32,463 nt of DNA from Spirogloea muscicola (taxonomy: Eukaryota > Streptophyta > Zygnematophyceae > Spirogloeales > Spirogloeaceae): NCBI GenBank assembly GCA_009602725.1, contig WELB01000335.1, forward strand, positions 14,921 to 47,383, written 5' to 3'. Below are positions 7,930-29,880 of the stretch, in pieces. A program made the translations under genes and the position numbers. Below the pieces are notes generated by a model. That model had not been told where the DNA came from. It did no database searches and saw nothing but the letters and a program-made list of their open reading frames with translations. The stretch's first letter is position 1, and every line of letters begins with the position of its first letter.

Positions 7930-8375
7930 GAACACTCACTCTCTCTCGCTCTCTTGCATCGCCGGGCTGGTCGCGCCCTTGCAGCAGCCTCTGGTTTGCG
8001 GCTGCTTAGCAGGGGTTACTGAGTGTCTCGTAGCTGCTTTGTTTCTGTTTCTTAGCGCTTCCCCTGGCCCCCGTCTCGTACTCTGTTCATTCTTTTTCGG
8101 GCTGGTTGTTCCAGCCCCTATTCTCAATGGGCGAGCACTTTCTTTCTGGTTTGCGCAGCGGGGTTGCTCTTCCGCCCCTCAGCTCGTCTGACTTGCTACT
8201 GCTGACACGGGGGTGTGTGAGGGCGCCCTGTCTGCCTAGCCTGTGGCTCCGTCATGAACACCTGTATGCATCTGGCTGGCACTTTACAGCCGATTCTTAA
8301 GTATCAGCAGCCTCGCTCTCTGTATGCACCCGGCTGGCTTTGACAGCCGCCCTTGGAATATGAGCAGCCGCCTTC
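7930..8375 (+). mobile_element. Nuclease-domain C-terminus and 3' UTR of a retroelement copy
   Basis: Ignoring the insertion at 8001-8144, the frame reads HRRAGRALAAASGLRSG then ALPPLSSSDLLLLTRGC, the family C-terminus (consensus ...AGRALAAASGxRxG...SDLxLLTRGY). The final TAC TGA is damaged to TGT GTG A. The 3' UTR contains two imperfect ~60-bp tandem units (8262-8320 and 8321-8377), each with a GGCTGGC...CAGCC hairpin. The copy ends about 75 bases upstream of the GPI8 start codon. Confidence 0.8.
8001..8144 (+). mobile_element. 144-bp retroposed 3' end with 11-bp target duplication
   Basis: This inserts into the nuclease-domain fragment around it. Flanks are TCTGGTTTGCG at 7990-8000 and 8145-8155. 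The insert starts inside the C-terminal codons (GCTGCTTAGCAGGGGTTACT-GA) and runs through the 3' UTR, the hairpin GGGCTGGTTGTTCCAGCCC and the end CAATGGGCGAGCACTTTCTT. Removing insert and one flank restores the host reading frame, which supports the boundaries. Confidence 0.88.
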
Positions 8376-8452
8376 GTCTGTCCTAAGAGGCCCCAACAAC
8401 GGCCCAACCCCTAGGAAGCTCTCAGGCCTGGCACCAAGGCCAGCAGCCCGGC

Positions 8453-10932
8453 ATGGCCGCGCCGCGGCGCCCCACCTGCGCCTGCGCCTGCGCCTGCGCG
8501 CTGCTGGCCGCCGCCGCGGTGGCCTCCTCGGCCGCGGCCGCGGGCACCGCCGGCCACACCGCCAATTGGGCGCTTCTCGTCTGCACCTCCCGCTTCTGGT
8601 GCTGCCCCCGACCCTCCCGTCCTCGCGCGCAGCCTGTCAGTGTGCCCCCCCGCACCTCACGCCCCAAGCGCGCCCCTGCGCCCCCCCGCAGGTTCAACTA
8701 CCGCCACATGGCCAACACGCTCTCCATCTACAGGCACGCCCGCCGCCTTAGGGCGGCTCCGCATCATACTATGGACGCACTCCTGGGTCTCCTGCGAGAG
8801 CTCACTGGGCTGGTGCCAAGAGTCGCCGCTGAAGCTCAGCAGCCCGTCGTGTCCGCGCCCAGGGCTGTCCGAAGGCTGGGCATCCCCGACGACCACATCA
8901 TCCTCATGCTCGCCGACGACGTGGCCTGCAACGCGCGCAACCCCCTCAAGCCCCGCGTCTTCGACGACCCCTCGCACACCCTCGACCTCTACGGCCAGCA
9001 CGTGGAGGTGAGCCCCGCCCTCCTCCTCACCTGCACGTGCCGCCTGTGAGCCAGCACAGGATCATCCCAGTACTGGACTCACTGAAGCCTCGCCCCAGCA
9101 GGTGGATTACCGGGGGTACGAGGTGTCAGTGGAGAGCTTCCTGCGCGTCCTGACCGGCCGCCACGACCCTGCCGTCCCCCGCTCCAAGCGGCTCCTCTCG
9201 GATGCCGGCAGTAACATCCTCATCTACCTCACCGGCCACGGGGGCGAGCAGTTCCTCAAGTTCCAGGTCTGGGGCCCCACCCGTCGCTCCCAACACGCCC
9301 TTTCTCAGCTGTCTGGCACAACGTGCCACCAGGGGTACCTGTCCTGCACTCGCAGCCGGCACACTTCACAACGGGCCTGCCAGACTGCGTCTTGCAGGAC
9401 ACCGAGGAAATCCAGAGCCGCGACCTCGCTGATGCGCTCCACCAGATGCACCAGCAGAAGAGGTGCGTTCGGCATGTTGTGTTGTGCCGGCGCTCCTGAC
9501 GAGGGCGATCAGGCCCCTGTGATCCGAGGAGACTGTGGTGGTCTGGGGGACTCTTTCTGAGCACACCCTACTGCCTAAATCTAAACAGGTGGTGAGCATG
9601 CAGGTATCGCGAAGTTCTGTTGATGGTCGACACCTGTCAAGCAAGCACTTTGCATGATCAGGTTCTGACGCATGCCTATATGTGCCGTCACTCCTCATGC
9701 TGCCGTCTTCTGCTACCCGCTTGCGAGCTTTAGCAGATGTGCAACAAGTGCTTGTGTACAGCTTGTATTTACCAGCTTGACCCATGGATCCTATCTGGGG
9801 CTTGCTGCAGCTGTATTCGCCAGAGGCTCTGTCTATTGGCAGCAGCCGCAAGAAGGAGAATTCCTACTCGCACCACTTGGACCCGCTCGTGAGTAATACA
9901 CTCTCCAAAGTCCAGCATCTGACATACTCCAGTCCTGCACTTGCTCCAGATCCTCATGCAGCGATGAGTGCTGATGCCGGTGTATTTATACTGCTTCAGG
10001 TTGGAGTGTATGTCGTGGATAGGTTCACGTCCTACACCTTGGCCTTCCTTGAGAATATGACCATGAATTCTAATGCAACATTGAAAAGGTCTTGTCGCTC
10101 TTCTCTCCTCACCCTTTGCATGCACATTGCACTACCTTCACTCTCCCTCTCGCACCTCTGCCCAGCATTTATAAGCTCTGCAGAGCTTGGCTTGCTTTTT
10201 GAGCCCCTGATTCACAAGTCATCTTACTCATAGCTTCAGCTTTCAGCAGCTTCTGGTGCCACAGAAGCCTGACAGAGGCTGCATCTGAGTTGTCGTTGCA
10301 CCAGCCTCTTTGACTACTACAAGCCTGAGCTCCTCATGTCCACCCCAGAGTACAAAAGTGACCTCTTCTCACGTAAGCTGGGAGATGTAAGTCCGTCCTT
10401 TCCAAGTGTTGAGCTTCGCTTCTGCTCTACTGTGCTAAGCAGGCAGGAAGGTCGTCCCCCCACATTACTTGTTTAAGCTTATGGGCAGCTGCTTACTGCT
10501 TGGGTGCGGGCATGCCACTTGCGCCCTCCAGGCAAGCCTGTGACTGGCCATCTGATCTCGCAGGTTGCTGTTACGGACTTCTTTGGATACATATCCAGCA
10601 TACAGCACAGCTCTGGCTTCGATGTGACATTTGGAGGCCATCCTGTTAGAGTAGCTGAGGGAATCCACTACAGCAGGCAGGCAGACACCTGCAGCACTTT
10701 GGCTGTCGATGAGGACAGGGTATGCCCCTCAAGGAAGCAGTTGATTGATGAGATCGAGAGTCTTCACTTAGGTCGAAGGAACAGTGACATGCCTTTGCAT
10801 CTGCACTGCAGTGCAAAGGGTGCCACTCACATATGTGAAATCAGCACCGACGTCCCATTTCTCACAGTTGTTGCTGCCTTAGCTGGTGCGCTTCTCGTTG
10901 TCTCCACATTGAGGAGGACGAGAGAACATTGA
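8453..10932 (+). CDS. GPI8: GPI-anchor transamidase catalytic subunit GPI8/PIG-K
   Basis: Ten exons: 8453-8598, 8692-8733, 8863-9007, 9102-9266, 9398-9462, 9604-9661, 9811-9888, 10000-10088, 10305-10386, 10564-10932; 412 residues. It is the C13 cysteine protease that cleaves precursor C-termini and attaches GPI anchors in the ER. Family motifs appear in order: NWALLVCTSRFW|FNYRHMANTLSIYR, GIPDDHIILMLADDVACNAR, VDYRGYEVSVESFLRVLTGR, the catalytic His in LTGHGGEQF (about 157) and the catalytic Cys in MVDTCQAS (about 199), then ALSIGSSRKKENSYSHH, VDRFTSYTLAF and VTDFFGYI. An N-terminal hydrophobic signal (to about 30) and a C-terminal membrane segment (VPFLTVVAALAGALLVV) fit a type I membrane protein. 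Intron 2 starts with GC (AG|GCACGC), the only donor that keeps frame and homology. The last exon contains a possible in-frame 99-nt intron (10720-10818); splicing it would give 379 residues. Confidence 0.95.
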
Positions 10933-11123
10933 ATGGCTCGGACGTGTTTATCACATGTGTGCAGTATTACTGCCAGTATAGTAATTTTAGCCTTCAATTG
11001 ACCCTTGGTAGTCACGTTGAAGGGCACAGATGAGAGACAAGCTGTCTCATTGTGTGCTTGCCATACTTCATATTACCATACAGCTGTGACACTGTGCATG
11101 AGGCAGGAGTTGGATGCACATGT
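10933..11123. other. Short convergent intergenic region
   Basis: The 3' ends of GPI8 (+) and the tRNA methyltransferase (-) face each other here over 191 bases. Both 3' UTRs must lie in or overlap this space. No other element seen. Confidence 0.6.
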
Positions 11124-12891
11124 TTACTGTATGTCTTGCTTTGATGGGTAATAACTAATAGCCTCTAGCTGACGAATTGCTTCATAGAGGCCCACCCCCA
11201 TGGCAACCGCAAGGTTAAGTGAGCGAACATGTGTCTCAACAATGGGAATGCGAGCTGAACCACCTGCATACTGACCTGTTGTGCACTCTTGAATAACAGC
11301 CTCAGGTAGCCCATCTGTCTCTGAGCCAAAGAGCAGCCAATCCCCTGGGCGGTACTGCACGTCCTGTTGCATCAAGCACAGCAATCATCTCCATGTGGTT
11401 GCTGGGAGCAACTATCTCCAAATGCTGCATCTGCTCTGAGCTGCGCTTGGCTTACTCAACATTACCTGCAGGAGGTTCTCCCAGCCGCAGTCACAGTGGA
11501 TAGACACTAGATGATGGACAACAGGACAGCTGAGTCACGGCCTCCACCAAGACAGACAGCAAGGAGAGACTGACCTATCTGAGAAGGCATGGAGGAAGCT
11601 TTGAAGGGCATGGACAGACCGTATGTGCAGTTGTGCCACGCTTTGTGAAGGCTATCAATCTCTTCTGACCCACCTGCACAGGTACAGGGAGACAGCTACA
11701 CCACTCGGTCAATTTGCGTGCACAATGATGGGTCGATGGCAAGAAGTCACAGATGGCCCTTCACCACGACGGATGACGGCTCTGTGACATACTAGAGATT
11801 GACGCGCCTGTACATACCTCATGCTCAAAATAGGTATAGAAGTCAGTCCAAGAAGAGTGCACTTTCACGACTACGTGTCTTTTTGCTCTGCTCGTCAAAA
11901 GCAAACGTCTGCAAGACTTTGCAGGACCTTGTGCCAGCATGCAAATCCCAGCAACACGTATACAATGGGTTGCACTGTCTTAGAGGTCAACATCTGTGCA
12001 ATGCCATTACATAATTGCTGCGTGCATCTCATCATGCTTTGCTAGGCAACTTAGCGCACCCCATAGAGGTCGGTGGCAAGGAAACAGCATTGCATGCACT
12101 TCACGTCGCAACAGAACCACTTTGGCAGCTTGTGAAGGATACGGCCAGTAGTCAAGGCCTGCCCTCTTTAGCTTGGTATCGTCGATGTCAAAGCCCAGCG
12201 GCTGGACACACCTGCATGACTCAGGTGTAAGACATGCAGGGCACTGCAGAAGAGTGCTTGTGACAATCATGCCTTCGGGATTCTTGGAGGAGCAACAAGC
12301 GTGGCACAGCTTCGGAGCACAGTACGGGGGCAAACTCTCAACCTTCACTAAGTGGAGGCCAACGGCCGTGGCGGCGGCCGTCCTCGCAATAGAGCCCACA
12401 TTTCCAGGGATCTGCACAATGCACCCCTTGAGCTGCCTTCATATGGACTTCTCTGGACGCAGCATTCCCCTCATTGCTGGTGCCGAGTAATACCAGGTCG
12501 CAGGAGAAGCAGAGCACTGAGCCTTGCAACGCCATGCCTGGAGAGTCGGGCGGTTTTGTGAAGCTGTGCTTTCTGAGCACTGCTATCCGCTATCCGGCAG
12601 GCACCTGACCTCAGATAGGCTGGAGGCCACATTATGCCTCAGAGTGCATGCAGAGGAGGAGCAGGAGCAGCTGGTGGTGCCAGTGATGGCGAGGGGGGGT
12701 CGGGCACGCTCACGCAAGGTGAGACGAGGACGACGTGGACATCGGTGCGCTGCGCGGGGCCTGTGGAGGGCGGGCTCCACTGCAAGCTCCAGGCGGGGGC
12801 AGGCGGCTCGGAGCTGGCGCCGGCGCGGGAGCACCCGCAGGCGGGTGCAGCGCCGGCAGCAGGGCGTGGGCGGGGGGCGCAGCCGGCGGGC
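11124..12891 (-). CDS. tRNA (cytidine/uridine-34 2'-O)-methyltransferase, TrmL/SpoU family
   Basis: Minus strand, 5' end lost in the assembly gap. Exons: from within the gap to 12714, then 12411-12343, 12201-12143, 11878-11818, 11673-11620, 11363-11124 (TAA stop). The joined protein reads VHVVLVSPC|IPGNVGSIARTAAATAVGLH..PLGFDIDDTKLKRAGLDYWP..VVVKVHSSWTDFYTYF..KRLIAFTKRG..YRPGDWLLFGSETDGLP..RIPIVETHVRSLNLAVAMGV. These are the SPOUT trefoil-knot motifs of TrmL: the SAM-binding FGSETDGLP and RIPIV...RSLNLAVA loops are intact. The bacterial enzyme methylates the wobble 2'-OH of tRNA-Leu; the algal protein may act in an organelle because a GC-rich, Ala/Pro/Ser-rich N-terminal extension of at least 40 residues precedes the core. 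The extension continues into the gap, so the start is unknown. It is convergent with GPI8. Confidence 0.9.
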
Positions 12892-13804
12892 NNNNNNNNN
12901 NNNNNNNNNNNNNNNNNNNNNNNNNNNNNNNNNNNNNNNNNNNNNNNNNNNNNNNNNNNNNNNNNNNNNNNNNNNNNNNNNNNNNNNNNNNNNNNNNNNN
13001 NNNNNNNNNNNNNNNNNNNNNNNNNNNNNNNNNNNNNNNNNNNNNNNNNNNNNNNNNNNNNNNNNNNNNNNNNNNNNNNNNNNNNNNNNNNNNNNNNNNN
13101 NNNNNNNNNNNNNNNNNNNNNNNNNNNNNNNNNNNNNNNNNNNNNNNNNNNNNNNNNNNNNNNNNNNNNNNNNNNNNNNNNNNNNNNNNNNNNNNNNNNN
13201 NNNNNNNNNNNNNNNNNNNNNNNNNNNNNNNNNNNNNNNNNNNNNNNNNNNNNNNNNNNNNNNNNNNNNNNNNNNNNNNNNNNNNNNNNNNNNNNNNNNN
13301 NNNNNNNNNNNNNNNNNNNNNNNNNNNNNNNNNNNNNNNNNNNNNNNNNNNNNNNNNNNNNNNNNNNNNNNNNNNNNNNNNNNNNNNNNNNNNNNNNNNN
13401 NNNNNNNNNNNNNNNNNNNNNNNNNNNNNNNNNNNNNNNNNNNNNNNNNNNNNNNNNNNNNNNNNNNNNNNNNNNNNNNNNNNNNNNNNNNNNNNNNNNN
13501 NNNNNNNNNNNNNNNNNNNNNNNNNNNNNNNNNNNNNNNNNNNNNNNNNNNNNNNNNNNNNNNNNNNNNNNNNNNNNNNNNNNNNNNNNNNNNNNNNNNN
13601 NNNNNNNNNNNNNNNNNNNNNNNNNNNNNNNNNNNNNNNNNNNNNNNNNNNNNNNNNNNNNNNNNNNNNNNNNNNNNNNNNNNNNNNNNNNNNNNNNNNN
13701 NNNNNNNNNNNNNNNNNNNNNNNNNNNNNNNNNNNNNNNNNNNNNNNNNNNNNNNNNNNNNNNNNNNNNNNNNNNNNNNNNNNNNNNNNNNNNNNNNNNN
13801 NNNN
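12892..13804. other. Assembly gap of 913 Ns
   Basis: A run of N. Its left edge cuts the first exon of the TrmL-type gene and its right edge cuts a retroelement nuclease frame. Frames translated across it are meaningless. Confidence 1.
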
Positions 13805-14305
13805 CTCCACACCCGCCGCGCAGACCTAGTCGCCATCCCGCCCGGCGGCGGTCCGCGTATCATCGCGGATGTGGTGACCGCCGACTGTGTCGACTCCGCC
13901 AACCCCTCCAAGTCGGCGACGACCGCTGGGCATTCGGTCGCTTTGGCGGCCCGGGGCAAGGAGCGGAAGTATGCCGATCACCCCCCAGGTGATGAGTTCG
14001 CGGCCCTTGCCATAGACGTCCACGGGGCTTACTGCAGCGGCTGGCTGGATCTCCTCCAGCGGCTTGCCCGGCAGGCCATGGAGCGGCGGCCGGGTCCGCC
14101 AGGGGGGCTGCCCGGCTTCAACGCGCCCGGCTCCCTGGCCCAGGTTTTCCGGATGCGGCTCTCCGTGTCCCTTCAACGCTCACTCGCTCATGCCGTCCAC
14201 TCGCGCGCGGGCTGTGCTCTTGTTGCTGCTTCCGGGTCTCGCCCGGCTGCATCTTTTCCAGCCTCGAGCTACTCAGACCTGATGTTGCTCACCCGCGGGT
14301 ATTGA
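13805..14305 (+). CDS. C-terminal nuclease region of the retroelement protein (partial, intact frame)
   Basis: Partial frame from the gap, 166 codons plus TGA. It begins LHTRRADLVAIPPGGGPR, continues IADVVTADCVDSANPSKSA, GKERKYADHPPGDEFAAL, VHGAYCSGWLDLLQRLAR, LAQVFRMRLSVSLQRSLAHA and ends YSDLMLLTRGY. The order R-x-x-DL ... (I/A)DV(V/T)T ... K-x-x-K-Y is what restriction-like (PD-(D/E)XK) endonucleases of some non-LTR elements look like. The glutamate expected upstream is visible in the related copy (VAVENTT near 26185). The assignment to the REL fold is inference from pattern, not from a search. This is the best-preserved copy of the domain in the window. Confidence 0.75.
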   Translation, partial: LHTRRADLVAIPPGGGPRIIADVVTADCVDSANPSKSATTAGHSVALAARGKERKYADHPPGDEFAALAIDVHGAYCSGWLDLLQRLARQAMERRPGPPGGLPGFNAPGSLAQVFRMRLSVSLQRSLAHAVHSRAGCALVAASGSRPAASFPASSYSDLMLLTRGY

Positions 14306-14434
14306 ACTTCGTGTGGTTCCGTCATGTCTAGTTGTCTAGATGCCTAGCTAGTGTTGGAGCTCTTTGGATATTGTCCATTCATTTTTGGCTGGCTTCTGCC
14401 AGCCCCTCTCTTCTATGGGCGAGCTCATCTTCTT
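13805..14434 (+). mobile_element. Retroelement fragment: nuclease domain, stop and 3' UTR
   Basis: Right of the gap, an open frame runs into a conventional stop, followed by a 3' UTR with hairpin GGCTGGCTTCTGCCAGCC and end CTATGGGCGAGCTCATCTTC. The stop, UTR and tail are nearly identical to the copy at 29057-29403 on the other strand, so both are probably young. How far the copy extends into the gap is unknown. Confidence 0.88.
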
Positions 14435-14835
14435 TCCCAGCCACCAGTCAATCAGGCCGCGCTTCCCTTCCTTACGCTGAAGGAGAAGGTGCCCGCCCAT
14501 TGAGGATTGGGGCTGGATAAGCCAGCCCAAAAAAGAATGAACAGGACTCGGACTAAGACCAAGACATCAGCCACGGGACGCTCAGTAACCTCTGGTCAGG
14601 AGATGCATCTCTGAGTAGCTAGCCGGCGGAAAGACGTCGCCCAGGTGAGGGGCTCGCCCATTGAGGATAACGGAAGCGCGGCCAGATTGACTGGTGGCTG
14701 GGAAAGGCCAGCCCAAAGGAGTGGACAAGATCTGAAGGAGCCGGAGTGCGAAGGACTAGACTAAGACATCAGCCAGGGAACGCTCAGTAACCTCTAGTCA
14801 GGATAGGGGCTGGGAAACGCCAGCCCGAGAATGGA
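14435..14835 (-). mobile_element. Nest of retroelement 3' ends, mostly minus strand
   Basis: At 14435-14470 are the last ~35 bases of a plus-strand tail (CCAGCCACCAGTCAATCAGG, GCCGCGCTTCC). From about 14635 down to 14478, on minus, is a C-terminus PPASYSEMHLLTRGY-stop with 3' UTR, hairpin GGGCTGGCTTATCCAGCCC and end CAATGGGCGGGCACCTTCTC. At 14651-14669 plus 14806-14835 is one further minus-strand hairpin tail split by the insertion at 14670-14799. Confidence 0.8.
14670..14799 (-). mobile_element. 130-bp retroposed 3' end with 6-bp target duplication
   Basis: AGGATA flanks both sides (14664-14669 and 14800-14805). On the minus strand the insert runs from the last codons of the family (CTAGAGGTTACTGAGCG) through a UTR to hairpin GGGCTGGCCTTTCCCAGCC and the end CTGGCCGCGCTTCC. 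It sits inside the end segment of another hairpin tail (CCCCTATCCT|CAATGGGCGAGCC), so the repaired target is itself a retroelement tail. Confidence 0.88.
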
Positions 14836-15745
14836 CCCAAGGACGAGAAGTGGCCCAGGCGCCCCCTCGTGCTGCTGCTGGGCGCACCAGGTGCCTGAGC
14901 CAGACCACCGAGCGGCTCACGGGGTGGTGCTCCGGCGCTCCAGCCAAGCCTGACCATGCTGCCTGGCGCCTTTGGGCACTCTTCGGGCGAGCACTTTCTT
15001 CTCTCGGCACCTCGTGGCGTGGCAACAAGAACAGCGCTTCCCCATTGAACAGCACTTCCAAAGCGTTGAAGCACGCAGCGACTGCGGTGGCCGCTGGGTG
15101 CTCAATGTCCTCTGCATCTTCAGGCCCCTCCGCTATTGTAGCTCTAGGCCCCTCCGTCATTTGGCCCCTTCGAACCTTTGTCAATGCTGTTCGGGCTGGC
15201 TTCTCACAACCCTTGCCCCAATTGGGATTGTTACGGAGGCGTATCAAGATCCAGCATCGACACACATCGCTGGCCACGCAGTGGGCGTTGCAGAACAAAG
15301 GAAGCTGCTGCACTACTCCGATTACCCCCAATGCGATCAGCTCCTGCCAGCGGCAGTCGACATCTTTGGCTGTCTGGGTCCTCGCTTTAACACTCTCCTT
15401 CAGAATATTGCCAATCTAGGCTACACACGGCGTGCAGGTGTGTTTCCGGCTGAGATGGGCTTGACAGCTGCATATCCGTCGCTCGTGCGACGACGACTTT
15501 CGGCCTGTTCGCAGCGTGCTCAGGCTAATGCTTTGCACCAGAAAGCTGGGCGAGCTCTAGTTGGTGGCAGAAGGGCTCCGTATCTGACATCTAGTATTCA
15601 GGCATCGATAAGCGACCTTTATGTTTTGACCCGTGGTTATTGAGCGGGTCAATCTGCTGTAGGTCATGTAGGTCTTCAGATGTGCTTGCCTTTGTACTTG
15701 GCCATTTGGCCTTCGTTTGTTTCAAATACACGAAATTTTCATTGA
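14836..15745 (+). mobile_element. Retroelement fragment with nuclease domain and 3' UTR
   Basis: From about 15225 the frame reads IVTEAYQDPASTHIAGHAVG, EQRKLLHYSDYPQCDQLLPA, VRRRLSACSQRAQANALHQK, AGRALVGGRR and SDLYVLTRGY-stop at 15643. This is a divergent subfamily of the nuclease domain that keeps the HAV...K...Y..YP pattern. The 3' UTR to about 15745 (GAGCGGGTCAATCTGCTGTA..., TTGGCCATTTGGCC) equals the UTR of RT copy 1, so both belong to one subfamily. Between 14836 and 15225 lie only degenerate pieces, including a tail end at about 14975-15002; no gene is seen there. Confidence 0.8.
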
Positions 15746-15748
15746 GAA

Positions 15749-16270: not shown

Positions 16271-16301
16271 CAGCCCCTCTTCTCAATGGGCGAGCACCTT
16301 C
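16271..16301 (+). mobile_element. 31-bp retroposed tail with 12-bp target duplication
   Basis: TTAGTTTAGGTC occurs at 16259-16270 and again at 16302-16313. Between them is only CAGCCCCTCTTCTCAATGGG plus CGAGCACCTTC, the last 31 bases of a hairpin tail, starting within the 3' arm of the hairpin. The paralogous UTR at about 25435-25480 has one copy of the target and no insert. Confidence 0.9.
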
Positions 16302-16324: not shown

Positions 16325-16387
16325 AAGAAAGTGCTCGCCCATTGAGAATAGGGGCTGGAACAACCAGCCCGAAAAAGAATGAACAGA
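16325..16387 (-). mobile_element. 63-bp retroposed hairpin tail with 6-bp target duplication
   Basis: GACATG flanks at 16319-16324 and 16388-16393. On minus the insert runs TCTGTTCATTCTTTTTCGGG, hairpin GGGCTGGTTGTTCCAGCCC, then CTATTCTCAATGGGCGAGCA, CTTTCTT. The paralogous UTR (about 25425) reads straight through this point. Confidence 0.9.
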
Positions 16388-16496: not shown

Positions 16497-16715
16497 AAGA
16501 AAGTGCTCGCCCATTGAGGATAGGGGCTGGACAAGCCAGCCCAAAAAAGAATGAACAAAGAACGAGAAGGGGGCCAGAGGAAGCCAGAGGAAGCGCTAAG
16601 AAACCAAAGCACACAAAGAAAGAAAGCAGCTAGAACGAGAAGGGAAGCGCGGCCAGATTGACTGGTGGCTGGCAAAGGCCAGCCCAAAGGAATGGACAAG
16701 GTCTGAAGGCAGAAG
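16497..16715 (-). mobile_element. Two adjacent 3' tails upstream of the phytol-kinase gene
   Basis: At 16497-16640 is a minus-strand UTR with hairpin GGGCTGGCTTGTCCAGCCCC and end CAATGGGCGAGCACTTTCTT. At 16642-16715 is a second type with hairpin GGGCTGGCCTTTGCCAGCC and end CTGGCCGCGCTTCCC. The last one stops about 105 bases before the start codon at 16822. Confidence 0.8.
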
Positions 16716-20060: not shown

Positions 20061-20069
20061 GCTGATGAC

Positions 20070-20690: not shown

Positions 20691-23600
20691 ATGGCGCCGC
20701 CAGCCGCCGCCGCCGCGCTGCCGCCGCCCGCGNGGCCCTGCCGGTCCGTGGCCCGCTTCCGCCACCTCCGCCGCCTGCTCGCCCGCATGCACTCCCCGCG
20801 GCACCCCCGCTCACCTCCCGCGCCGCCCTGCTCGTCCGTGGTGCCCAGGCCTCGGGCGCCAGCTGATGGAGGCGTGGGAGCACTTGCTGCGCCGCACCGG
20901 CTTCCGCCACCCCTCCCCGGGCGACGCAGCCAGCCCCGCCGACGGCCCAGACGACCCGGCAGCCCGGCGGCGCGTGCTGGTGCTGGGCGCCACAGGCAAG
21001 CTCGGCCGCCACGTCGTGCGCAGCCTGCTCCACCGCGGCTGCAGGGTGGTGGCCCTGGTGGCCAGCCAGGAGGGAGCGCGACAGGCAGGCGCCTTCCCGA
21101 CTCCACCCGCCCTGCACCTGCGGGCATGCCCACCCGCCGGGCATTGTGCTCCCGGCAAGACGGCCCTTTGACATGCAGAACCCAAAGGCAGGTGCTGGAG
21201 CAAGAGGAGGGGCTGGAGGTGAGCACCGCCATGCTCACCACGGTTGTTGGGGACATTCACGACTACGGCGCGATCCTGGACTCCGTCAGGCAGTGCGATG
21301 CCATCGTATACTGCGTCGGAGCTCGCTTTTCGGATGGCGGCTACCTGCCAGGCAGCTCCCAGAGGTCGGTCACCTGTTGTTCCTTGGTTAAGCTCCAATG
21401 CTTGCATAGCTCCACCAGGCCAAGTTTGCCCTATGTAAGATGAACTGCTGACTCTGCTTAGCTACTTATGAGGTGGAAGTGCAGCGATTGTGCGCAGTAT
21501 TGCGAGCAGTTATTGGGTCAGCGCAAGAACCACTTATCCATAGGAAGCTATGTCGAATACAGGATGTCTACAAGACAGGCGTGGCAACAGTTGTGCGTGC
21601 AGCAGTGGAGGTGTACAGAGCACCTGACGCTCAAGCTGGCAGAGACGAACATAGCATATATGACTTCAAGGACTTGCAAGGCACAGAAGCGGGTCTTGAT
21701 GGCTGGGCTCGCCTGGACGATGTCATCATGGGTGGCGCCTCCTCGAGCACATTCCGTCCTGGCGATGGTGAGTTGAGGAGATCTGAAGAACGACGGCAAT
21801 CCAGCCAGTATGATTGACCGGTCCCAGTGTCGCAAGCAGAGGTGTAGCTCATCATCTACTAGAGCTCTGAAGCATAAGCAGACATTGCTCGACATACCTC
21901 CACATGGCATCTGAAGAATTTCGAGGCATCCAGCCTTGGAGCTCTCATCCTCAATACTCACAAGTCTGTCAGGCCTACTTGGCACCAGCACTGCTTAGCT
22001 CCTAATGCGACCCTTGCTTACTGAAGAGGGTACCGGATTTGGTTGCTGGCAGTAAGATTTGGTTCCTGGCAGTACAGATTAGATATCCACTTTTCAAGTC
22101 ATAAAAACTGGAAATCTAATCAGTGTCCCCCCTGATTGCCTCACTGACTCCATTTTATGAGCAACTTGTCTAGGTTGTGCAGTTTTTGAGGGCACAGTGC
22201 GAGTGGAGGGGGGTGGCTTTTGCGGCACTAGGTGACCAGCTTTGACCTGGGGCTTGTGAGGCCAGCTGGCTTTGCTGCAACCGGCTGAATGCTGCTGTGT
22301 GTTCACTATGCAAACAGGGCCGAGTGTCCTGGAGCTCCCATGGATTTTTCATCCTTTGACGGCATTGCACTGAGAGTCCGTGGAGATGGACAGCGTTACA
22401 AGCTCAATCTTCGGTCCACCGTAAGTCCAGCTCGTCCCTGTGAATAGCATCTACGGGGGTTGGCTGGACTGATCAAGTACTCATCGAAAGTTGGTCCTGT
22501 TGATCTGCTGTGAGCAGATGGAACGAACAGAATTTCAGTACCAGGCGACCTTTGATACCGTGGCCAATCGCTGGATGGCAGTATCCATTCCATTTGACAG
22601 GTACTGATGTCTGCTAAGTGTTTGATGTACATAGAGTTCCTCTATCGCATTGTGCAGGAGTGAGCTTGGCCAGCATGCTTGTGTGAAATCCATCTCCCAT
22701 TACTGCACCCAGCCCCATCTCCTGAGCTTGCTTGGAAAACATAGCTCTGACTCAATGTGCTACTACTTCAAGAATAGGTTTCTGCCAGTCGTCAGAGCAC
22801 AGGTGCAACCTGAGGCTGGGCCTCTTCGTACCACCTCTATCTGCACTGTGAGTCATGCCGCACCTGAATTGCTCCTCTCAGACATCTCATATTCACAGAA
22901 GCAGCAGCTGTTGACTCCTGTCTTCCGCCTCCACAGGTGGGCCTTGTGATCAGCAGGTTTCAGTACGAGGGACTTGCCAATCCGCTTTTTGTTCCCGGCG
23001 GCTTCAAGCTTGAGGTCAGAGACAATCCTTCCCACTGTAATTGACATTGTTTCGCTTGCATGCACACCTGCAAGATTTTCTCCTGCTGACAGCCCGCACG
23101 TGCAACTAGGTAGAGAGCTTGAGCGCGTATCGTGCGGAGAGGCCTCGGTTGGTGCTTGTGAGCAGCGCCGCTGTGGAGCGCAATGCTCGAGCCACCACAG
23201 CTGAGAAGCGCGAATGCAGCATCCCTATCGTGAAACTTAATCCTGGTAAAGCATGCTCTGACGGAGTGCTACTTCATTGCTTCAGCGCGCCTCTCCGGCC
23301 TCCGCCCCCCTGCAATGGTGGCGCTTGCGGCGTGCCTGACGATTTTCAACAACTCCATTGGCTCAGGGGGCATTCTCACGTGGAAGCTGGTAGGAGAAGA
23401 CATGGTGCGGGCCAGCGGCCTCCAATACACCATCGTGCGCCCTTGCGGCCTGACTGATAAAGATCAGGACGTACCGTTTCTCATGGAGGTACAAGCCTGG
23501 GCCCTTTGCAGCTCGCAGCTTGCTTCCTCAAGGCCGTTAACAGGAGCCAGATGCTGAGTTAGACGATTGTGCCCGGAACCCTTGCCAGGCCGCCCAGGGC

Positions 23601-23972
23601 GACTGCATCACTGGCCTCCTCTCACGCCAGGAGGCGGCGGACGTGTGTGTTCGTGCCCTGGATTCTCCCGAAGCCGTCAATACCACATTTGAGGTGGGAA
23701 AGCTTGGCAGATGTACATGATACAGGGTGGCCGATCAAGGCAAGCAGGCGAGTGTGGGGGTGAAACGTAGGCATATGGAAGAGCACACTAGTAATGCATG
23801 ACATTAGGATGCTGATACATTCGTGCAGGTGAGGCGGGACGAGGCGACTAGGGGGCTGGCCATGGAGGAGAGTGACTGGAGGGACCTCTTCAGGAGGCTG
23901 CGTGAGGACCGGCAGCTTGGGGTGGTGCAGCACGCTGTGCCACCACCAGGGGTGGTTGGCAAGGGAGTGTGA
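20691..23972 (+). CDS. HCF173-like atypical SDR protein with inserted CIA30 domain
   Basis: Proposed exons: 20691-21084, 21192-21364, 21544-21767, 22183-22231, 22318-22420, 22518-22600, 22778-22847, 22937-23014, 23110-23245, 23367-23488, 23544-23693, 23829-23972. All phases agree; about 574 residues if the N at 20733 is discarded, 516 from the ATG at 20866. Domains: a probable plastid transit peptide (1-58), Rossmann start RRVLVLGATGKLGRHVVRSL, VVGDIHDYGAILDSV and DAIVYCVGA, then CIA30 (WARLDDVIMGGASSSTF, VFEGTVRVEGGGFCGTR, GIALRVRGDGQRYKLNLR, WMAVSIPFDRFLP, ISRFQYEG), then SDR again (RPRLVLVSSAAVERN, WKLVGEDMVRASGLQYTIVR, EAADVCVRALDSPEAVNTTF). An SDR split by CIA30 is the plan of Arabidopsis HCF173, a chloroplast psbA translation and stability factor (598 aa). 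Function by homology is inference. Intron 1 appears to use a GC donor (CAG|GCAGGC). Confidence 0.85.
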
Positions 23973-24774
23973 CGGAGCAGCATGCCAGAGGGTGAGGAGG
24001 CGTTAGAGGCCAGGGGGTGGAGGGGATGACTGAAGGGGGAAGAGCCCAGCGTGTCATTGGCAGAAAAGAGCAGTGCAAAAACAGTGCACTGCCCAACTGC
24101 GGATATTGAGCACATCTGAAGTGGATGTTTGCATGCCAACCTGCTTGCCACATTGCTGAAGCCAGAGTGGCAGGACACAGCTTTGGGCAGACTACCCCTG
24201 TATGAGTGGCAGCACTGTGCGGAAGCCATGCGCCTGCTGCATACAGTTAAGGTGGGATGAGTGAGGGGTGGCGACCAGTAGCAGGTGCAGACAGTGATCG
24301 ACCTGCTGTAGAAAATTTAGAGGTCGACAGGGGCTTTCAAGTTCATGTGGCCGCGCTTGCTTTCACAGAGGTCGGTGGTGGAAGGCCAGTCAAGGAGGAG
24401 TGGCCTGGCGGGAAGACTTCTGGCTGTCCAGGGGAGACGTTTGGGGGATGCCACGAAGGGTGTGGAACATTGAGAGAAGCATGCACAGTGCTGGTGCGAG
24501 AAGGTGCCAGCAAGTAAGTGGGAGAGACTCAGTCCACCGAGCAGCGCAGTGAGCATGCAAGCAGTGAACAGTGGCTGTGGTTCAGAGAGGGAGGGGTGCA
24601 GGTGGGCAGCTTCGTGCAGGGAAAGTTGGGTTGCAGGTCATGGGCTGCAAAGAACAGCTATGCAAGTGGCTACCTTAAATGGGAGCTCCTTAACCCCTGG
24701 ATTTACCAGAAGAAAGCGGCTCCCAAGGAGGGCGAGACTGTGGTAAGCCATTTGTTCGTTCTTTCTGTTTGAGC
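23973..24774. other. Unassigned region with exon-like open stretches
   Basis: Two stretches look like coding: on + about 24131-24253, LLATLLKPEWQDTALGRLPL then YEWQHCAEAMRLLHTVK before a GTGGGA donor-like site, and about 24618-24745, SYASGYLKWELLNPWIYQKK. They are in compatible orientation but I found no clear exon chain between them and recognise no family. It may be a small gene or a decayed one. Confidence 0.4.
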
Positions 24775-25285
24775 TAGCTTTTCCAGCACCGATCCTCAAT
24801 GGGCGCGCCCTTCTTTGAAAAGCCAGCAAAAGAGAATAGAGAGGGTCCAATGAGTTGAAAGGCTCAAACCTGCGTGAGGAGGCGGGGCATGCGTTTGGCA
24901 AGGCTGCGGGTGGTAGAATGCGCAAAGTCGCGGCCAACCCTGCCGGCAATGGATGGCAATCTTCTTCCAATGGACAGATTATGGCGCAGGCAGTGGACGA
25001 GCACGAGGTCTTAGGCAGTCGGTGGTTGGACCTCCTGCAGCAGATTGCACGGCGAGCAATCATTCGTCGGGACAGCAAGGTGAGCTGCCCTGCTTCAGTG
25101 ACTCCGGGTCGCTTGCCCAGGTGTTCCGCATGCGGCTCTCTGTCGCATTTCAGCGCTCCCAGGCTCATGCAGGTTCACAATGGACAGCGGCGGCGCTTTG
25201 GCTGCTTCTGAGTCCCGTCGGGAAAACTCGTTTCCAGCCGCAAGTCACTCCCACTTGCGGCTGCTGCCTAGAGGGTGTTGAGCTC
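24775..25285 (+). mobile_element. Degenerate tail and nuclease-domain fragment
   Basis: A decayed hairpin tail lies at 24775-24822 (TTCCAGCACCGATCCTCAAT GGGCGCGCC). From about 24870 a nuclease fragment follows: EEAGHAFGKAAGGRMRKVAA, LGSRWLDLLQQIARRAIIRR, a frameshift near 25085, then GSLAQVFRMRLSVAFQRSQA and SHLRLLPRGC-stop at 25281. Residues and order match the intact domain at 13805-14305. Confidence 0.75.
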
Positions 25286-25352
25286 CGATGCAAGCAGTGT
25301 TACTGGCTTGCTCTGGCCTCCCTCGCGCCTCTCTCTCTGTGCGATGTACCAG

Positions 25353-25510
25353 ACGAGAGAAGGCGCGCGGAGCGCATGAAATAGGGAGGCCAAGTCAAGC
25401 TACTACATTGTTCAGGCAAAGTCTAGTGCAAACTAAACAAGGCTACATAATACGGAGACCTAAAGTAAGGTGCCTAAGGTGACAATAGTACCCACGGGTG
25501 TGCACAAACA
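25353..25510 (-). mobile_element. Retroelement C-terminus and 3' UTR without insertions
   Basis: On minus the sequence resembles the end of the copy at 15805-16490: a LFVLTRG-like remnant (about 25505-25490), then CACCTTACTTTAGGTCTCCG, TATTATGTAGCCTTGTTTAG, GCCTGAACAATGTAG and the end TTTCATGCGCTCCGCGCGCC TTC. It lacks the two insertions found at 16271 and 16325, so it serves as an internal empty-site control. Confidence 0.85.
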
Positions 25511-25537
25511 AATTCGACCAGAAGCTGAGAGCAAGGT

Positions 25538-27300
25538 TCAAGAAAGTGCTCGCCCATAGTTAAATAGGGCTGGCAAAGCCAGCCCAAAAAGAATGGACAC
25601 TTTGCAAAGCCAAAGAAAGAGAAGCCAGAAAAGGACTACATTACAGAACACAAGACGATGCAGAGGGAAGCTCAGTACCCGCGAGTGAGCAACAGCAGGT
25701 CAGTGTAGCTCGCTGCAAGGAAAGTGGCACTCTGCCAAGACCCGGAGGCAGCAGCCATAGCTCGGCCAGCGCGCGCCTGGACCGCATGAGCCAAAGAGCG
25801 CTGGAGTGAGACCGCCAGCCCAATCCGAAACACCTGAGCGAGGGAACCGGCAGCATTAAAGCCTGGCGAACCCGGCCGTTTCTCGATGGCCTGCCGGGCA
25901 AGCCGCTGGAGGAGATCCAACCAGCCACTGCCAAAGGCCCCGTGAACGTCAATGGAGAGGCCGCGAAGACATCGCCGGGAGGGTGGTCCGCGTACTTACG
26001 CTCCTTACTCCGAGCCGCCAAAGCGACTGCGTGCCCGGCGAGCGTCGCCAACCTTGCAGGGTTGGCGGAGTCGACGCAATCTGCAGTCACCACATCTGCG
26101 ATGATATGCGATGGCAACGAGGTCAGTGCGGCGGGTGTGAAGCTATCGATAGACGCCCCACTGGATGGGCAAGATGGTCGTGTTCTCCACTGCCACCTTG
26201 TAACCGGCCTCCAGGAACACACCCTGCACGGCGTCTCGCAGGAGGTCGTGTGAACCTGTCCGCTCGCCTCCGTGCGCGCCGCGAAGCATGTGGGTAGCCA
26301 GCTCCGCAGGGTCGACGTGACGGGCACCGCACTCGCACTAAGTGACGCCCACGAGGCAGGGAGGGAGGAGGCCCAAGAGCCGATGGACCGCCGTCCTAAA
26401 GACCTCATCGGGCATGGTTAGCGCGGCGTAGAGTGGGAGCGCTGACACCCATGCCGCCGCCCCTGGGGAAGAGGCTGACAGGACCTGGCACGCCCGCGGA
26501 GGTCAGACGGAGGGAGAAGCTCCACCACCTGGTCAGAGGCCGCTTTTTCAACCAACGCCGTGAAGCGTGCCTGGGCACGCAGTTCGGGGGTGTGGGCGAG
26601 GTGAATGAAGGGGACGGCCTGTTCCGACATGTGGCGGTTGACCGCCAGGAGCCCGTCGCGGGCAGAGCGGAGGGCGACCTGGAAGGGTAGCTGGCCCGTC
26701 TCCAATTCAGCTGCCGCGCGCTCCAGGGCTGGCCGTGGACGATGAAGCGTTGGCACATGGGGGCTGCAACCTGAGCCCAGCTCCCCACGTAGGCCGCCTC
26801 AAAGACGCGGGCAACTGAGCGGCATCCCAAGCCGCCGCGACTGGTCGGCAGGCTGGCCTGCAGCAGCGCAGCTGGTGTGGTGAGGAATGCGGGGTGCTGC
26901 ACGGGGGTGGCTGCGGACGCCAAGATGCCGGAGTCAAAGGCCGCATACGCTGCCTTCACCGCCGATGAGGGAGGGACGGTGCGGGCCAGATATTGTTGCC
27001 GCTGCGGGATGCAGCGGGTCAGCATAGCGGTCGCCAGCTGCATGTCTTGCAGCGTGTGGAGCCGGTACGCCGGCCTGAGGTGTGCCTGCAGCCGCGCCTG
27101 CAGCTGCTCCGTCACAAAGGCAGGTGCGCCTAGGGGGACGCCGAGGAGGGTGAGGCCCCCCGGTTGGTGTCTGGCAGCCCAAGGGCAGGCACAGGTGGGC
27201 TGCCAGGCCCGCAGGCTCAGGAGAAGCGGACAAGGGCGGGACAGCGGTCAGCCAGGCAGGGGGCGTACGAGGGCAGCGGGCGGGCGGGGTCCCGGGGAAA
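25538..27300 (-). mobile_element. Reverse-transcriptase retroelement, copy 2 (degenerate)
   Basis: Minus strand, 5' truncated or deleted. At about 27275-27260 is LPSYA, the start of the catalytic YADD box, then a deletion. From about 27160 are GGLTLLGVPLG, TSRGGLGCRSVARVFEAAYV and GSWAQVAAP (matching copy 1), a frameshift near 26730, LPFQVALRSARDGLLAVNRH, then after more damage a zinc-finger-like CECGARHVDPAELATHMLR with a following H (about 26337-26225), VAVENTT, an in-frame TAG, LHTRRTDLVAI, a short deletion causing a frameshift near 26105, IADVVTADCVDSANPARLAT, SKERKYADHPPGDVFAA and SYTDLLLLTRGY-stop at 25672. The 3' UTR ends in hairpin GGGCTGGCTTTGCCAGCCC and CTATGGGCGAGCACTTTCTT. This copy gives the domain order: RT, finger, nuclease, tail. 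Confidence 0.85.
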
Positions 27301-27369
27301 AAAAGGAATTGGAAGGTGGGGGCGGGCGCCGTCGGCTCGGCCGGGCCGGCTGCGCTCCACCCCTCCCTG

Positions 27370-27475
27370 ACTGATGGGCGAGCACTTTCTTCTTCTTCCC
27401 TGACTGGTGGCTGGTGGTGGCTGGCTGCCACCAGTCACCAGTCCATCTGGCCGCGCTTCTCTTTCTTCCCTGTCG
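27370..27475 (+). mobile_element. Two lone 3' tails
   Basis: At 27373-27402 only the terminal CTGATGGGCGAGCACTTTCT TC remains. At 27403-27475 is the other type, with hairpin GGTGGCTGGCTGCCACC and the end CCATCTGGCCGCGCTTC. Confidence 0.7.
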
Positions 27476-27559
27476 GAGCCCAGCCTGTGGCTCCGTGGAC
27501 GTGGTTGCTCGTGTCTGGACGGGAACAACCTCGCCTGACTTCTTCCCGCCTGACTTGTC

Positions 27560-27960
27560 CGTCCAACATCGGCAGAGCCGTCTCAGATGGGCATGCCAGC
27601 AGCCTGCTTGTCATTCTTGCGTCGTCGAGTGTCAGCTTGTCTGCAGCGAGCTCAGGCTTCTTTCTTCTTTTCCAGCCCCTATCCTCATTGGGCGAGCACT
27701 TTCTTCTTCAGGCTCATGCGTTGCATCAGAAAGCTGGTCGAGCCTTAGCTGGTAGCTCAAGAGCCTGTCGATTGCCGTCCAGTATTCGGGCATCAGTTAG
27801 CGACCTCTATGTGCTGACTTGTGGTTACGGAGTGGGTCAGCTTAGCAGCAGGCGATGTACATTTGTCGGCGTGCTTGCGTTTGTACTTGGCCACACAGGC
27901 CCTTCATCTCTTGATACACGTAGCGTTTTCCTGCCGGCCTGCGCTCGGCGGGCTTTTCCT
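27560..27960 (+). mobile_element. Nuclease-domain fragment interrupted by a 50-bp tail
   Basis: Reading across the insertion at 27659-27708, the frame gives RRRVSACLQRAQAHALHQKA GRALA and then ASVSDLYVLTCGY; the TGA after GGTTAC is replaced by GGA. The UTR (GAGTGGGTCAGCTTAGCAGC, TTGGCCACACAGGCC) matches the subfamily at 15228-15745 and RT copy 1. Confidence 0.8.
27659..27708 (+). mobile_element. 50-bp retroposed tail with 6-bp target duplication
   Basis: CAGGCT at 27653-27658 and 27709-27714 flanks a fragment starting in a TTCT run, then TTCCAGCCCCTATCCTCATT GGGCGAGCACTTTCTTCTT. Removal restores the coding sequence LQRAQAHALHQKAG of the host copy, matching the uninterrupted homologue near 15520. 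Confidence 0.9.
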
Positions 27961-28480
27961 TACTGAGTGTCTCGTAGCTGCTTTGTTTCTGTCTCTTAGC
28001 GCTTCCCCTGGCCCCCTTCTCGTACTCTGTTCATTCCTTTTCGGGCTTGTTGTTCCAGCCCCTATTCTCAATGGGCGAGCACTTTCTTCTTTTCTTCTTT
28101 TCTTTAAGGAGCCTAGCCTCTCCGACCTGCGGCTGCTTAGCAGAGGTTACTGAGTGATTCTCCTGTAGCTCTTTGTTGTGTGCTTGTCATTTCTGCTGCT
28201 TCGCCTTAGGGCTTCGCCTGGCTTCCCCCCCCCTCTTCTTGTACTCTGTTCATTCTTTTTTGGGCTGGCTGTTCCAGCCCATATTCTCAATGGGCGAGCC
28301 CTTCTTCTTTGGATTTTGTCCATTCTTTTTTGGCTGGCTTCTGCCAGCCCCTCTTCTATGGGCGAGCTCATTCTTCTTCTTCTTTTCGCTTCCCCTGGCC
28401 CCCTTCTCGTACTCTGTTCATTCTTTTTCGGGCTGGTTATTCCAGCCCCTATTCTCAATGGGCGAGCACTTTCTTCTTTT
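27961..28480 (+). mobile_element. Tandem run of four retroelement 3' ends
   Basis: All are plus strand. First, 27961-28104 from TTACTGAGTGTCTCGTAGCT through hairpin and tail. Second, 28105-28310, a C-terminus EPSLSDLRLLSRGY-stop (28153) with its UTR, hairpin GGGCTGGCTGTTCCAGCCC and tail. Third, 28311-28384, UTR with GGCTGGCTTCTGCCAGCC and CTATGGGCGAGCTCATTCTT. Fourth, 28385-28480, UTR and hairpin tail of the first type. No RT sequence is present. Confidence 0.82.
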
Positions 28481-28501
28481 TTTCTGGCTGCTGCCTCTGG
28501 C

Positions 28502-28542
28502 TGCTGCTCCCCCCTTCTCTTCTCTACGAGCGAGAACTTTCT
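28502..28542 (+). mobile_element. 41-bp retroposed tail with 6-bp target duplication
   Basis: TCTGGC at 28496-28501 and 28543-28548. The insert ends CTACGAGCGAGAACTTTCTT, a diverged version of the usual CAATGGGCGAGCACTTTCTT end. Confidence 0.75.
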
Positions 28543-28567
28543 TCTGGCCAGGGGACCCGCTTCCAGC

Positions 28568-28615
28568 TTTTCGGGCTGGTTGTTCCAGCCCCTATTCTCA
28601 ATGGGCGAGCACTTT
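28568..28615 (+). mobile_element. 48-bp retroposed hairpin tail with 8-bp target duplication
   Basis: CTTCCAGC at 28560-28567 and 28616-28623. The insert is TTTTC, hairpin GGGCTGGTTGTTCCAGCCC, CTATTCTCAATGGGCGAGCA and CTTT. Confidence 0.85.
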
Positions 28616-28794
28616 CTTCCAGCGGCCCGCCGCCTCGGGCAGCAGAGCAGCCCGGCTTCAACGTCGCCGGGTCCTCAAGTCTTCCGTATGCGTTTGGCCG
28701 TCTCGATGCAGCGGTCCCTTGCCTTCGCGGTTCACTTGCGCGCAGGCCGAGCTTTGGCGGCGGCCTCCGGCTTCCGTCAGGGCGACGTCTTTCC

Positions 28795-28852
28795 ATTGTC
28801 CATTCTTTTTGGGTTGGCTTTGCCAGCCCCTCTTCTCAATGGGCGGGCACTT
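28795..28852 (+). mobile_element. 58-bp retroposed hairpin tail with 7-bp target duplication
   Basis: TCTTTCC at 28788-28794 and 28853-28859. The insert starts ATTGTCCATTCTTTTTGGGT, has the loop region TGGCTTTGCCAGCCCC and ends CAATGGGCGGGCACTT. Excision joins GDVF to PPASYSDLHLLTRGY in frame. Confidence 0.88.
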
Positions 28853-28930
28853 TCTTTCCGCCAGCTAGCTACTCGGACTTGCATCTCCTGACTAGAGGTT
28901 ACTGAGCGTTCCCTGGCTGATGTCTTATCA

Positions 28931-29055
28931 GGCTCCCTCAGACCTTGTCCATTCCTTTGGGCTGGCCTTTCCCAGCCACCAGTCAATCTGGCCGCGCTTC
29001 TTCTTCCAGGAACCCAGTTTTCCCTGACCTGAGGCTGCGTAGCAGAAGAAAAGAA
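28931..29055 (+). repeat. Unit 0 of the 125-bp tandem array, separated from the rest
   Basis: This is the same 125-bp unit as at 29881-30254. It starts GGCTCCCTCAGACCTTGTCC and ends TAGCAGAAGAAAAGAA. It is followed directly by the two minus-strand elements at 29056-29880, which lie exactly at the unit boundary. Confidence 0.88.
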
Positions 29056-29403
29056 GATGGGCTCGCCCATAGAAGAGAGGGGCTGGCAGAAGCCAGCCAA
29101 AAAAGAATGGACAATATCCAAAGAGCTCCAACACTAGCTAGGCATCTAGACAACTAGACATGACGGAAACCACACGAAGTTCAATACCCGCGGGTGAGCA
29201 ACATCAGGTCAGAGTAGCTCGAGGCTGGAAAAGATGCAGCCGGGCGAGACCCGGAAGCAGCAACAAGAGCACGGCCCGCGCGCGAGTGGACGGCATGAGC
29301 GAGTGAGCGTTGAAGGGACAAGGAGAGCCGCATCCGGAAAACCTGGGCCAGGGAGCCGGCCGCGTTGAAGCCGGGCAGCCCCCCTGGCGGACCCCCGGCC
29401 GCC
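29056..29403 (-). mobile_element. Nuclease-domain fragment, near twin of 13805-14434
   Basis: Minus strand from 29403: a short frame-disturbed start (GERRP..GGLPGFNAAGSLAQ), FRMRLSLSLQRSLAHAVHSR, AASGSRPAASFPASSYSDLM, LLTRGY-stop at 29181, then the UTR with CTAGTTGTCTAGATGCCTAG, hairpin GGCTGGCTTCTGCCAGCC and CTATGGGCGAGCCCATC. Nearly identical to the copy right of the assembly gap, in opposite orientation. Confidence 0.85.
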
Positions 29404-29412
29404 GCTCCAAAG

Positions 29413-29869
29413 AAGAAAGTGCTCGCCCATTGAGAATAGGGGCTGGAACAACCAGCCCGAAAAAGAATGAACAGAGTACGAGAAGGGGGCCAGGGGAAGC
29501 GCTAAGTAACAGAAACAAAGCTGCTACGAGACACTCAGTAACCCCTGCTAAGCAGCCGCAGATCAGAGATGCTGGGCTCCTGGAAGTGGGTCCCCTGGCC
29601 AGAGCCAGAGGCAGCAGCGAGGGCTCTGCCGGCACGAAGGTGCAGCGCCCGGGCCATGGACCTCTGCAGCGAGACGGCCAGGCGCATTCGATACACTTGC
29701 GCCAGCGACCCGGCTGCAGGGAAGTCAACCGGCTCCCCATGGAAGCGCCGGGCGATGGTGTGGCGGGCGAGCTGGGTGAGCAGCTCGAGCCACCGAGCGC
29801 CCAGCGCCCCATGTGTGTCGATGGCCAACGGGAAGAACTCGTCTTCCCGCGGATGATCCGCGTACTTCA
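29413..29869 (-). mobile_element. 457-bp retroposed 3' end with 9-bp target duplication
   Basis: GCTCCAAAG at 29404-29412 and 29870-29878. On minus the insert starts inside the nuclease domain (KYADHPREDEFFPLAIDTHG), continues WLELLTQLARHTIARR, LAQVYRMRLAVSLQRSMARA, LRAGRALAAASGSGQG and EPSISDLRLLSRGY-stop (29535), then the UTR, hairpin GGGCTGGTTGTTCCAGCCCC and CAATGGGCGAGCACTTTCTT. The frame is open throughout. It is the longest delimited insertion and shows that 5' truncation length is variable. Confidence 0.88.
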
Positions 29870-29880
29870 GCTCCAAAGCA

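Follow-up and report, generated by a model that had tools for sequence, protein, structure and literature searches.

Tail inserts in the window

The window (the whole 32,463-nucleotide stretch of DNA analyzed here) is part of contig C335 of the Spirogloea muscicola assembly, which comprises 153.1 Mb in 471 contigs. Its retroelement copies are heavily nested and broken, and they include short inserts consisting of the 3′ end (the "tail") of a non-long terminal repeat (non-LTR) element. A preliminary description of this DNA had delimited nine such inserts by flanking direct repeats, read as target-site duplications (TSDs). All nine repeats were found to match letter for letter at both claimed ends, but the TSD of the insert at 28502-28542 is unsupported. 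At best eight of the nine inserts share the same 3′ terminus, as the insert at 14670-14799 has a second tail type. The length range given for them, 31-144 bp, was too narrow, the insert at 29413-29869 being 457 bp long.

The 144-nucleotide (nt) 5′-truncated insert at 8001-8144 (plus strand) is flanked by TCTGGTTTGCG at 7990-8000 and 8145-8155, and the corresponding empty site in the relative L052 reads CAGCCTCTGGCTTGCGCAGCGGGG, with the target present once. The flanking repeat is 11 bp long; the automatic test misses it, the alignment running into the duplicated target. This insert was scored with overlap 0 among the empty sites described below because its break was misplaced. The shortest of the nine inserts (31 nt; 16271-16301, plus strand) has flanks reading TTAGTTTAGGTC, a repeat of 13 bp if the preceding C is included, and is absent from relatives L069 and L018. 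Its neighbor (63 nt; 16325-16387, minus strand; GACATG flanks) is absent from L069 and L079. The alignments of this pair with the three relatives leave 7-9 bases open at this place.

Empty sites were also found for the 50-nt insert at 27659-27708 (plus strand; CAGGCT flanks), in relatives L008 (overlap 6) and L015 (overlap 7), and for the 58-nt insert at 28795-28852 (plus strand; TCTTTCC flanks), in relatives L059 and L090. For the 48-nt insert at 28568-28615 (plus strand), flanked by the 8-bp repeat CTTCCAGC, there was no empty site among the sequences compared. The longest insert (457 nt; 29413-29869, minus strand; flanks GCTCCAAAG) comprises the end of the element open reading frame (ORF), with a stop codon after ...LLSRGY, followed by the 3′ untranslated region (UTR) and the tail. 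The second-tail-type insert (130 nt; 14670-14799, minus strand; AGGATA flanks) interrupts an older first-type tail and ends, on the minus strand, with CACCAGTCAATCTGGCCGCGCTTC.

The tail-like insert at 28502-28542 (plus strand) has diverged badly and is surrounded by three occurrences of TCTGGC, at 28483, 28496 and 28543. The uninterrupted relative reads CTCTGGCTCTGGCC, with the tandem repeat TCTGGCTCTGGC already in place; since the repeat pre-exists there, TCTGGC is not a TSD. Four of the nine claimed repeats are just 6 bp long. Permuted flanks reach 6 bp in 5.3% (tight search window), 13.6% (wide) or 19.9% (widest) of cases, and each 6-bp repeat is therefore weak on its own. Two further tails lie in the window: a young-subfamily copy of ∼130 nt at 27960-28088 (plus strand), with only a weak 6-bp repeat, and an older-subfamily copy of ∼140 nt at 16497-16635 (minus strand; limits approximate), with no clear duplication.

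Abundance and length of tail copies in the genome

A 21-base word from the tail gave at least 8,940 matches (4440 + 4500) with up to two mismatches in the 153-Mb genome, and none when read backwards. The word of the youngest subfamily and that of the second tail type, each with up to one mismatch, gave at least 1365 (683 + 682) and at least 939 + 940 genome matches, respectively. For closer analysis, 141 tail copies were sampled from 20 unselected 10-kb stretches (contigs C1-C3; two of the stretches all N), two tail-word loci, 60 hit-centered stretches and the window. Of these, 132 were usable after removal of copy 17, which overlaps copy 16, and of eight copies without sufficient flank; 81 copies with an alignment score per base of at least 0.85 and a length of at least 25 nt were classed as clean.

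The young copies are nearly identical across hundreds of bases. The 52 exact young-subfamily words listed on contigs C1-C4, where the list and the sequence agree on all 52, mark copies with a median length of 137.5 nt (quartiles 79 and 203; range 47-641), three of the lengths being lower bounds. Copies shorter than 100 nt make up 21/52 and those shorter than 200 nt 38/52; 43 fall within 50-250 nt, and one reaches 500 nt or more. As the young word starts ∼40 nt ahead of the 3′ end, shorter copies went uncounted. Some of the markers placed further upstream also occur in other subfamilies, and these were considered solely where an exact site stood beside a young word: among 84 exact young words on contigs C1-C10, the exact marker at -52 was present in 57, that at -163 in 27 and that at -407 in 9, which are underestimates because of marker mutations. 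When up to one mismatch was allowed, the -407 marker had at least 203 matches in the whole genome, compared to the 1365 of the young tail word. The -919 marker was found at no fewer than 55 exact sites. A further 133 sites, at least, differ from it by one mismatch, and all 45 of those listed carry one of two changes at the same base; these sites thus appear to belong to other families. On contigs C20 (1131584/1135186) and C338 (10097/13699) the -919 marker occurs twice each, with a spacing of 3602 bases and in opposite orientation; this is probably a duplicated segment.

Across copies the 3′ end is fixed and the 5′ ends are widely spread. A separate small non-autonomous family with a borrowed tail of a long interspersed nuclear element (LINE), i.e., a short interspersed nuclear element (SINE), would also consist of many short copies having a LINE tail in common. 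The copies lack the discrete start of such a family, their lengths extending from 47 to 641 nt, and the young ones are collinear with the LINE 3′ UTR and ORF for their whole extent. No tRNA or Rfam RNA that could serve as a SINE head was detected in a scan covering the window. We consider a SINE family highly improbable.

A first list of sites suggested long blocks of same-strand copies along the contigs. A second pattern revealed opposite-strand sites omitted from that list, and when the first list was thinned and subjected to a runs test, 39/69 adjacent pairs were on the same strand (p = 0.14; without C1, 24/47, p = 0.57). The strand blocks were dismissed as a listing artefact.

Target-site duplications and empty sites

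Direct repeats were sought between the flank at the aligned 5′ break and the flank after the tail, with flanks permuted between copies as the control. Among the 81 clean copies (tight search window), repeats of at least 6, 7 and 9 bp were found in 33, 23 and 15 copies, compared to 5.3, 1.9 and 0.5% with permuted flanks. In the wide search window, 43 of the 132 usable copies had repeats of at least 7 bp, compared to 5.2% for flanks taken from different copies. For 49 of the 52 young copies (the other three have N as the 5′ flank and were excluded), the corresponding fractions in the widest search window were 28/49 for at least 6 bp, 19/49 for at least 7 bp and 16/49 for at least 9 bp, as against 19.9, 9.0 and 2.0%. 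Repeats exceeding the permuted level therefore also occur beyond the window.

Duplications of at least 6 bp occurred in every length class of the clean copies: 8/14 (25-50 nt, where 5.3% is the expectation over all lengths), 4/15 (50-80 nt), 10/21 (80-150 nt), 8/24 (150-300 nt) and 3/7 (300 nt or longer). There is thus no sign of a restriction to long copies. The duplicated targets are diverse, with 32 different strings among 33 duplications.

Empty sites were identified for 18 of the 132 copies, including copies of only 40, 46 and 64 nt. In 11 of the 18 the overlap was at least 5 (6-14 bp), with the target there present once; element-like flanks may have raised the value of 14 (copy 24). The duplications above the permuted control, the empty sites and the combination of fixed 3′ with spread 5′ ends support the claim that 5′-truncated 3′ ends were precisely inserted.

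These data also speak to the proposal that the tails are longer insertions later trimmed by deletion. The element copies in the window are indeed nested and broken, and many copies have no duplication. Where duplications are present, however, they either coincide with the truncated 5′ end or are only a few bases away from it, and the empty sites join the flanks with the target once. As a deletion would tend to remove one of the two repeats, later trimming is disfavored, and we give it very little credence.

Structure of the insertion junctions

The element ends in GGGCGAGCACTTTCTT: of the 23 copies whose duplication measures 7 bp or more, 13 have a 3′ repeat that starts 16 nt past the start of GGGC. 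Nine of the 15 duplications of at least 9 bp begin with CTT, and one more with CT. Such targets resemble the element end, as if the nicked strand paired with the 3′ end of the RNA. At the 5′ junction, the same 23 copies showed a mean microhomology of 1.74 nt between the flank and the part of the element upstream of the break, compared to 0.43 nt with exchanged flanks; 16 of the 23 had at least 1 nt. The way these copies were selected may inflate the microhomology somewhat. The terminal hairpin GGGCTGG-loop-CCAGCCC was strongly conserved in 25 aligned rows, the copies having been found by hairpin-bearing sequence, and the fold of one 66-nt tail gave z = -3.9.

Coding capacity of the element

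The window contains a 613-amino acid (aa) reverse transcriptase (RT) ORF of the element family (5258-7099, minus strand; RVT_1, Pfam E = 2e-18). At locus L083, a 484-aa ORF (counted to the stop codon) lies ahead of a long tail copy and is 46% identical over 158 aa to the C-terminus of the window RT ORF. A related element is represented at 13805-14305 (plus strand; position 13805 is the edge of an N run) by its endonuclease-like C-terminus, which ends with ...LLTRGY and a stop and has 60% identity to the C-terminus of the L083 ORF. An RT thumb fragment of a related element at 26405-27115 (minus strand) has no Pfam match and was assigned by eye only, from its likeness to P0124 and L083.

The L083 ORF aligns with RT proteins, some of them from Closterium, in which a C-x-C...H...C knuckle (most rows) is followed by R-x-x-D...D-V-[VT]...K; the second D and the K of this endonuclease motif are invariant in eight rows. 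A profile of the RT-CCHC-endonuclease region matched R2 proteins better than any other solved structures (E = 4e-31, as against 1.9e-13 for the best LINE-1), and a second profile stretch matched R2 over the CCHC and endonuclease parts (i-E 0.00096, modest). The endonuclease part had no Pfam match at E ≤ 1. A CCHC motif and a PD-(D/E)XK-like endonuclease following the RT, as predicted here, are a feature of the R2-type group. Joined through overlapping copies, the sequences indicate that the tail belongs to a dispersed non-LTR element, of which it forms the 3′ end, with an RT, a CCHC motif and a putative R2-type endonuclease.

Relatives of the L083 ORF in a eukaryote protein set comprised five gene models whose names begin with SM000; parts of the ORF are 94, 88, 65, 64 and 59% identical to them. 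Four of 22 RT relatives were assigned to Closterium, another zygnematophyte (PMC9915684). In the gene models P0122, P0123 and P0125, pieces of the element ORF stand beside the Pfam domains MIP (PF00230), hydrolase (PF12697/PF00561) and armadillo (PF00514); these models are either annotation artefacts or exonised element pieces.

Related tails and the host gene

Older tail subfamilies have the 3′ hairpin and the GGGCGAGC end in common and differ in their upstream parts. They occur at 14381-14433, 24765-24817 and 28306-28375 of the window and at L018, L046, L071 and L083. ORFs with differing C-termini (LLSRGY, LLTRGY, VLTRGY and LLTRNY) were also observed, and tail exchange between element families is possible. 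Between 28929 and 30255, the window contains ∼128-bp units of the second tail type, with a first copy at 28929 and a tandem of three (29879, 30004 and 30128). These units are 82-99% alike and represent a local tail amplification.

Amid its nested retroelement pieces, the window also contains exons of a GPI8-like gene that match Peptidase_C13 (Pfam E = 1.3e-5). One 57-aa exon had 98 protein matches at E ≤ 0.001; the majority have a Peptidase_C13 domain, and GPI8 and phosphatidylinositol glycan class K are among the names given to them. A further GPI8-like gene copy on contig C150 (347627-348254, minus strand; 88% identity over 608 bases) is a homeologue or a duplicate and might be of use in dating insertions. 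An ORF at 31318-32256 (minus strand) contains a long repeat rich in glutamine, and its only match, to TFIIA, is below threshold.

Probable mechanism of insertion

The tails are best explained by target-primed reverse transcription (TPRT) carried out by a dispersed R2-type non-LTR element, with a very early stop, pairing between the target and the RNA 3′ end, and microhomology at the 5′ joint; we hold this explanation with considerable confidence. The element RNA would end with the GGGCTGG-loop-CCAGCCC hairpin followed by GGGCGAGCACTTTCTT(CTT). The element protein would recognize this tail and nick DNA where the target starts with CT(T), which would pair with the RNA 3′ end. As in the element family at large, the nick would then prime synthesis of complementary DNA (cDNA), and a stop of synthesis mostly within 50-250 nt would account for the lengths observed. 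Cutting of the second strand 6-12 bp away would give rise to the observed duplications, and the 5′ end of the cDNA would be joined to the target, often via 1-3 nt of microhomology, some insertions arising without duplication or with a small loss. Early stopping and joining in this manner would leave thousands of copies in which the terminal hairpin and a portion of the 3′ UTR are nearly all that remains. The preliminary description had likewise invoked TPRT, and the adjacent ORF indeed belongs to an element type that uses it.

Several observations weigh against this reading. No exact repeat of at least 6 bp was found in 48 of the 81 clean copies; this reflects decay of older copies, plus some insertions made without duplication. 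Among the empty sites, the overlap was 1-4 in 4/18 and 0 in 2/18, and six bases were lost in 1/18. A 501-base stretch of contig C150 could be aligned with the region of the 8001-8144 insert only via another element copy, and not in the flank. The hairpin showed two-sided change in 0/7 pairs, so that, without covariation, it is conservation that argues for its role. Finally, at 5/23 junctions with a clear duplication, 1-3 unmatched bases precede the element.

Unmatched bases of this kind resemble those added at the end of a template, as might be expected if each short copy represented the whole of a short 3′ fragment of degraded or cleaved element RNA and not an aborted cDNA. Such fragments would yield the same fixed 3′ end and spread 5′ ends. 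The part of the earlier claim that concerns the insertion outcome is supported, while early abortion as such is deduced from it, short RNA fragments being expected to look alike. The microhomology with the element upstream of the break, on the other hand, fits cDNA ends annealing to the target. We therefore regard copying of RNA fragments as rather unlikely, and an early stop of cDNA synthesis as the likeliest cause of the shortness.

It is also conceivable that the enzyme itself is processive and is stopped early by host end-joining of the Ku/Artemis type. The loss of Ku70 or Artemis is reported to lengthen zebrafish LINE inserts in chicken cells (PMC2666801). This would be a sub-case of the TPRT explanation rather than a competitor to it, and we put it forward tentatively, as something that may well not apply.

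Comparison with known elements

Truncation at the 5′ end is standard for LINEs. R2-like elements encode an RT, a CCHC motif and a restriction-like endonuclease in one ORF, as is predicted for the alga element, and 5′-truncated R2 copies are described in cockroach (PMC7650587). R2 proper inserts at a single site in 28S ribosomal DNA, and elements with restriction-like endonucleases are described as mostly target-specific (PMC4640811), whereas the alga element is dispersed, judging by its varied duplicated targets and by copies present throughout the contigs. A second difference from R2-type elements is the extreme truncation that dominates in the alga element.

Vertebrate CR1 and L2 elements, which belong to clades of the apurinic endonuclease (APE) type, resemble the alga element in being mostly 5′-truncated, in a different host lineage. 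Chicken CR1 copies are described as mostly truncated, with 3′ UTRs lacking poly(A) (PMC2734521). For CR1 of the lizard Anolis, truncation is said to vary with the distance from the 3′ end, clade differences being put down to processivity, and many insertions of less than 50 bp were invoked to account for a gap in counts (PMC5389967). The hairpin-tail products, which the preliminary description called unusual, are consequently so in degree but not in kind. Another study gives mean lizard lengths of 1448 bp (CR1, in the green anole) and 1194 bp (L2) (PMC7561263), compared to the median of 137.5 nt for the young alga copies.

The stringent-type elements UnaL2, ZfL2-1 and ZfL2-2, although of another clade, have a conserved 3′ stem-loop, to which the conserved terminal hairpin of the alga element may correspond, and recognition of the stem-loop is described for LINEs of this type (PMC4176376). 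Junction microhomology and mainly short duplications are likewise reported for ZfL2-2 (PMC2666801). Recognition of the hairpin by the protein, a feature of stringent-type LINEs, is putative in the alga element. Zepp, a LINE of trebouxiophyte green algae, belongs to the L1 clade and is poly(A)-tailed. Among the literature matches listed, no title dealt with this element or with tail-dominated retroposition in zygnematophytes, in a search that left subscription papers mostly uncovered.

Significance

The phenomenon is real and genome-wide, and it can be explained by a known mechanism taken to an extreme; neither the element type nor the host was one in which it had been expected. What is new here is the degree of truncation, the element type and the host, the mechanism being already known. 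The cause of 5′ truncation in LINEs is an old question, and this family, in which truncation is extreme and the copies are young, has enough members to yield a drop-off curve at base resolution. As an R2-type element that has no fixed target, it is also relevant to the engineering of DNA-insertion enzymes with respect to processivity and site choice. Furthermore, tail-only copies are easily missed in annotation, and pieces of the element turn up in host gene models.

A bolder possibility, which we regard as speculative and at present doubtful, is that the enzyme stops within the first 50-250 nt so often that tail-only retroposition is normal, which would effectively make the hairpin the unit that moves. 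The choice of site would then depend chiefly on CTT microhomology between the target and the RNA 3′ end, and nicks that happen to be available may be used just like sites cut by the element's own endonuclease. If this is true, tail-only copying would be the normal outcome for an R2-type element without a fixed target.

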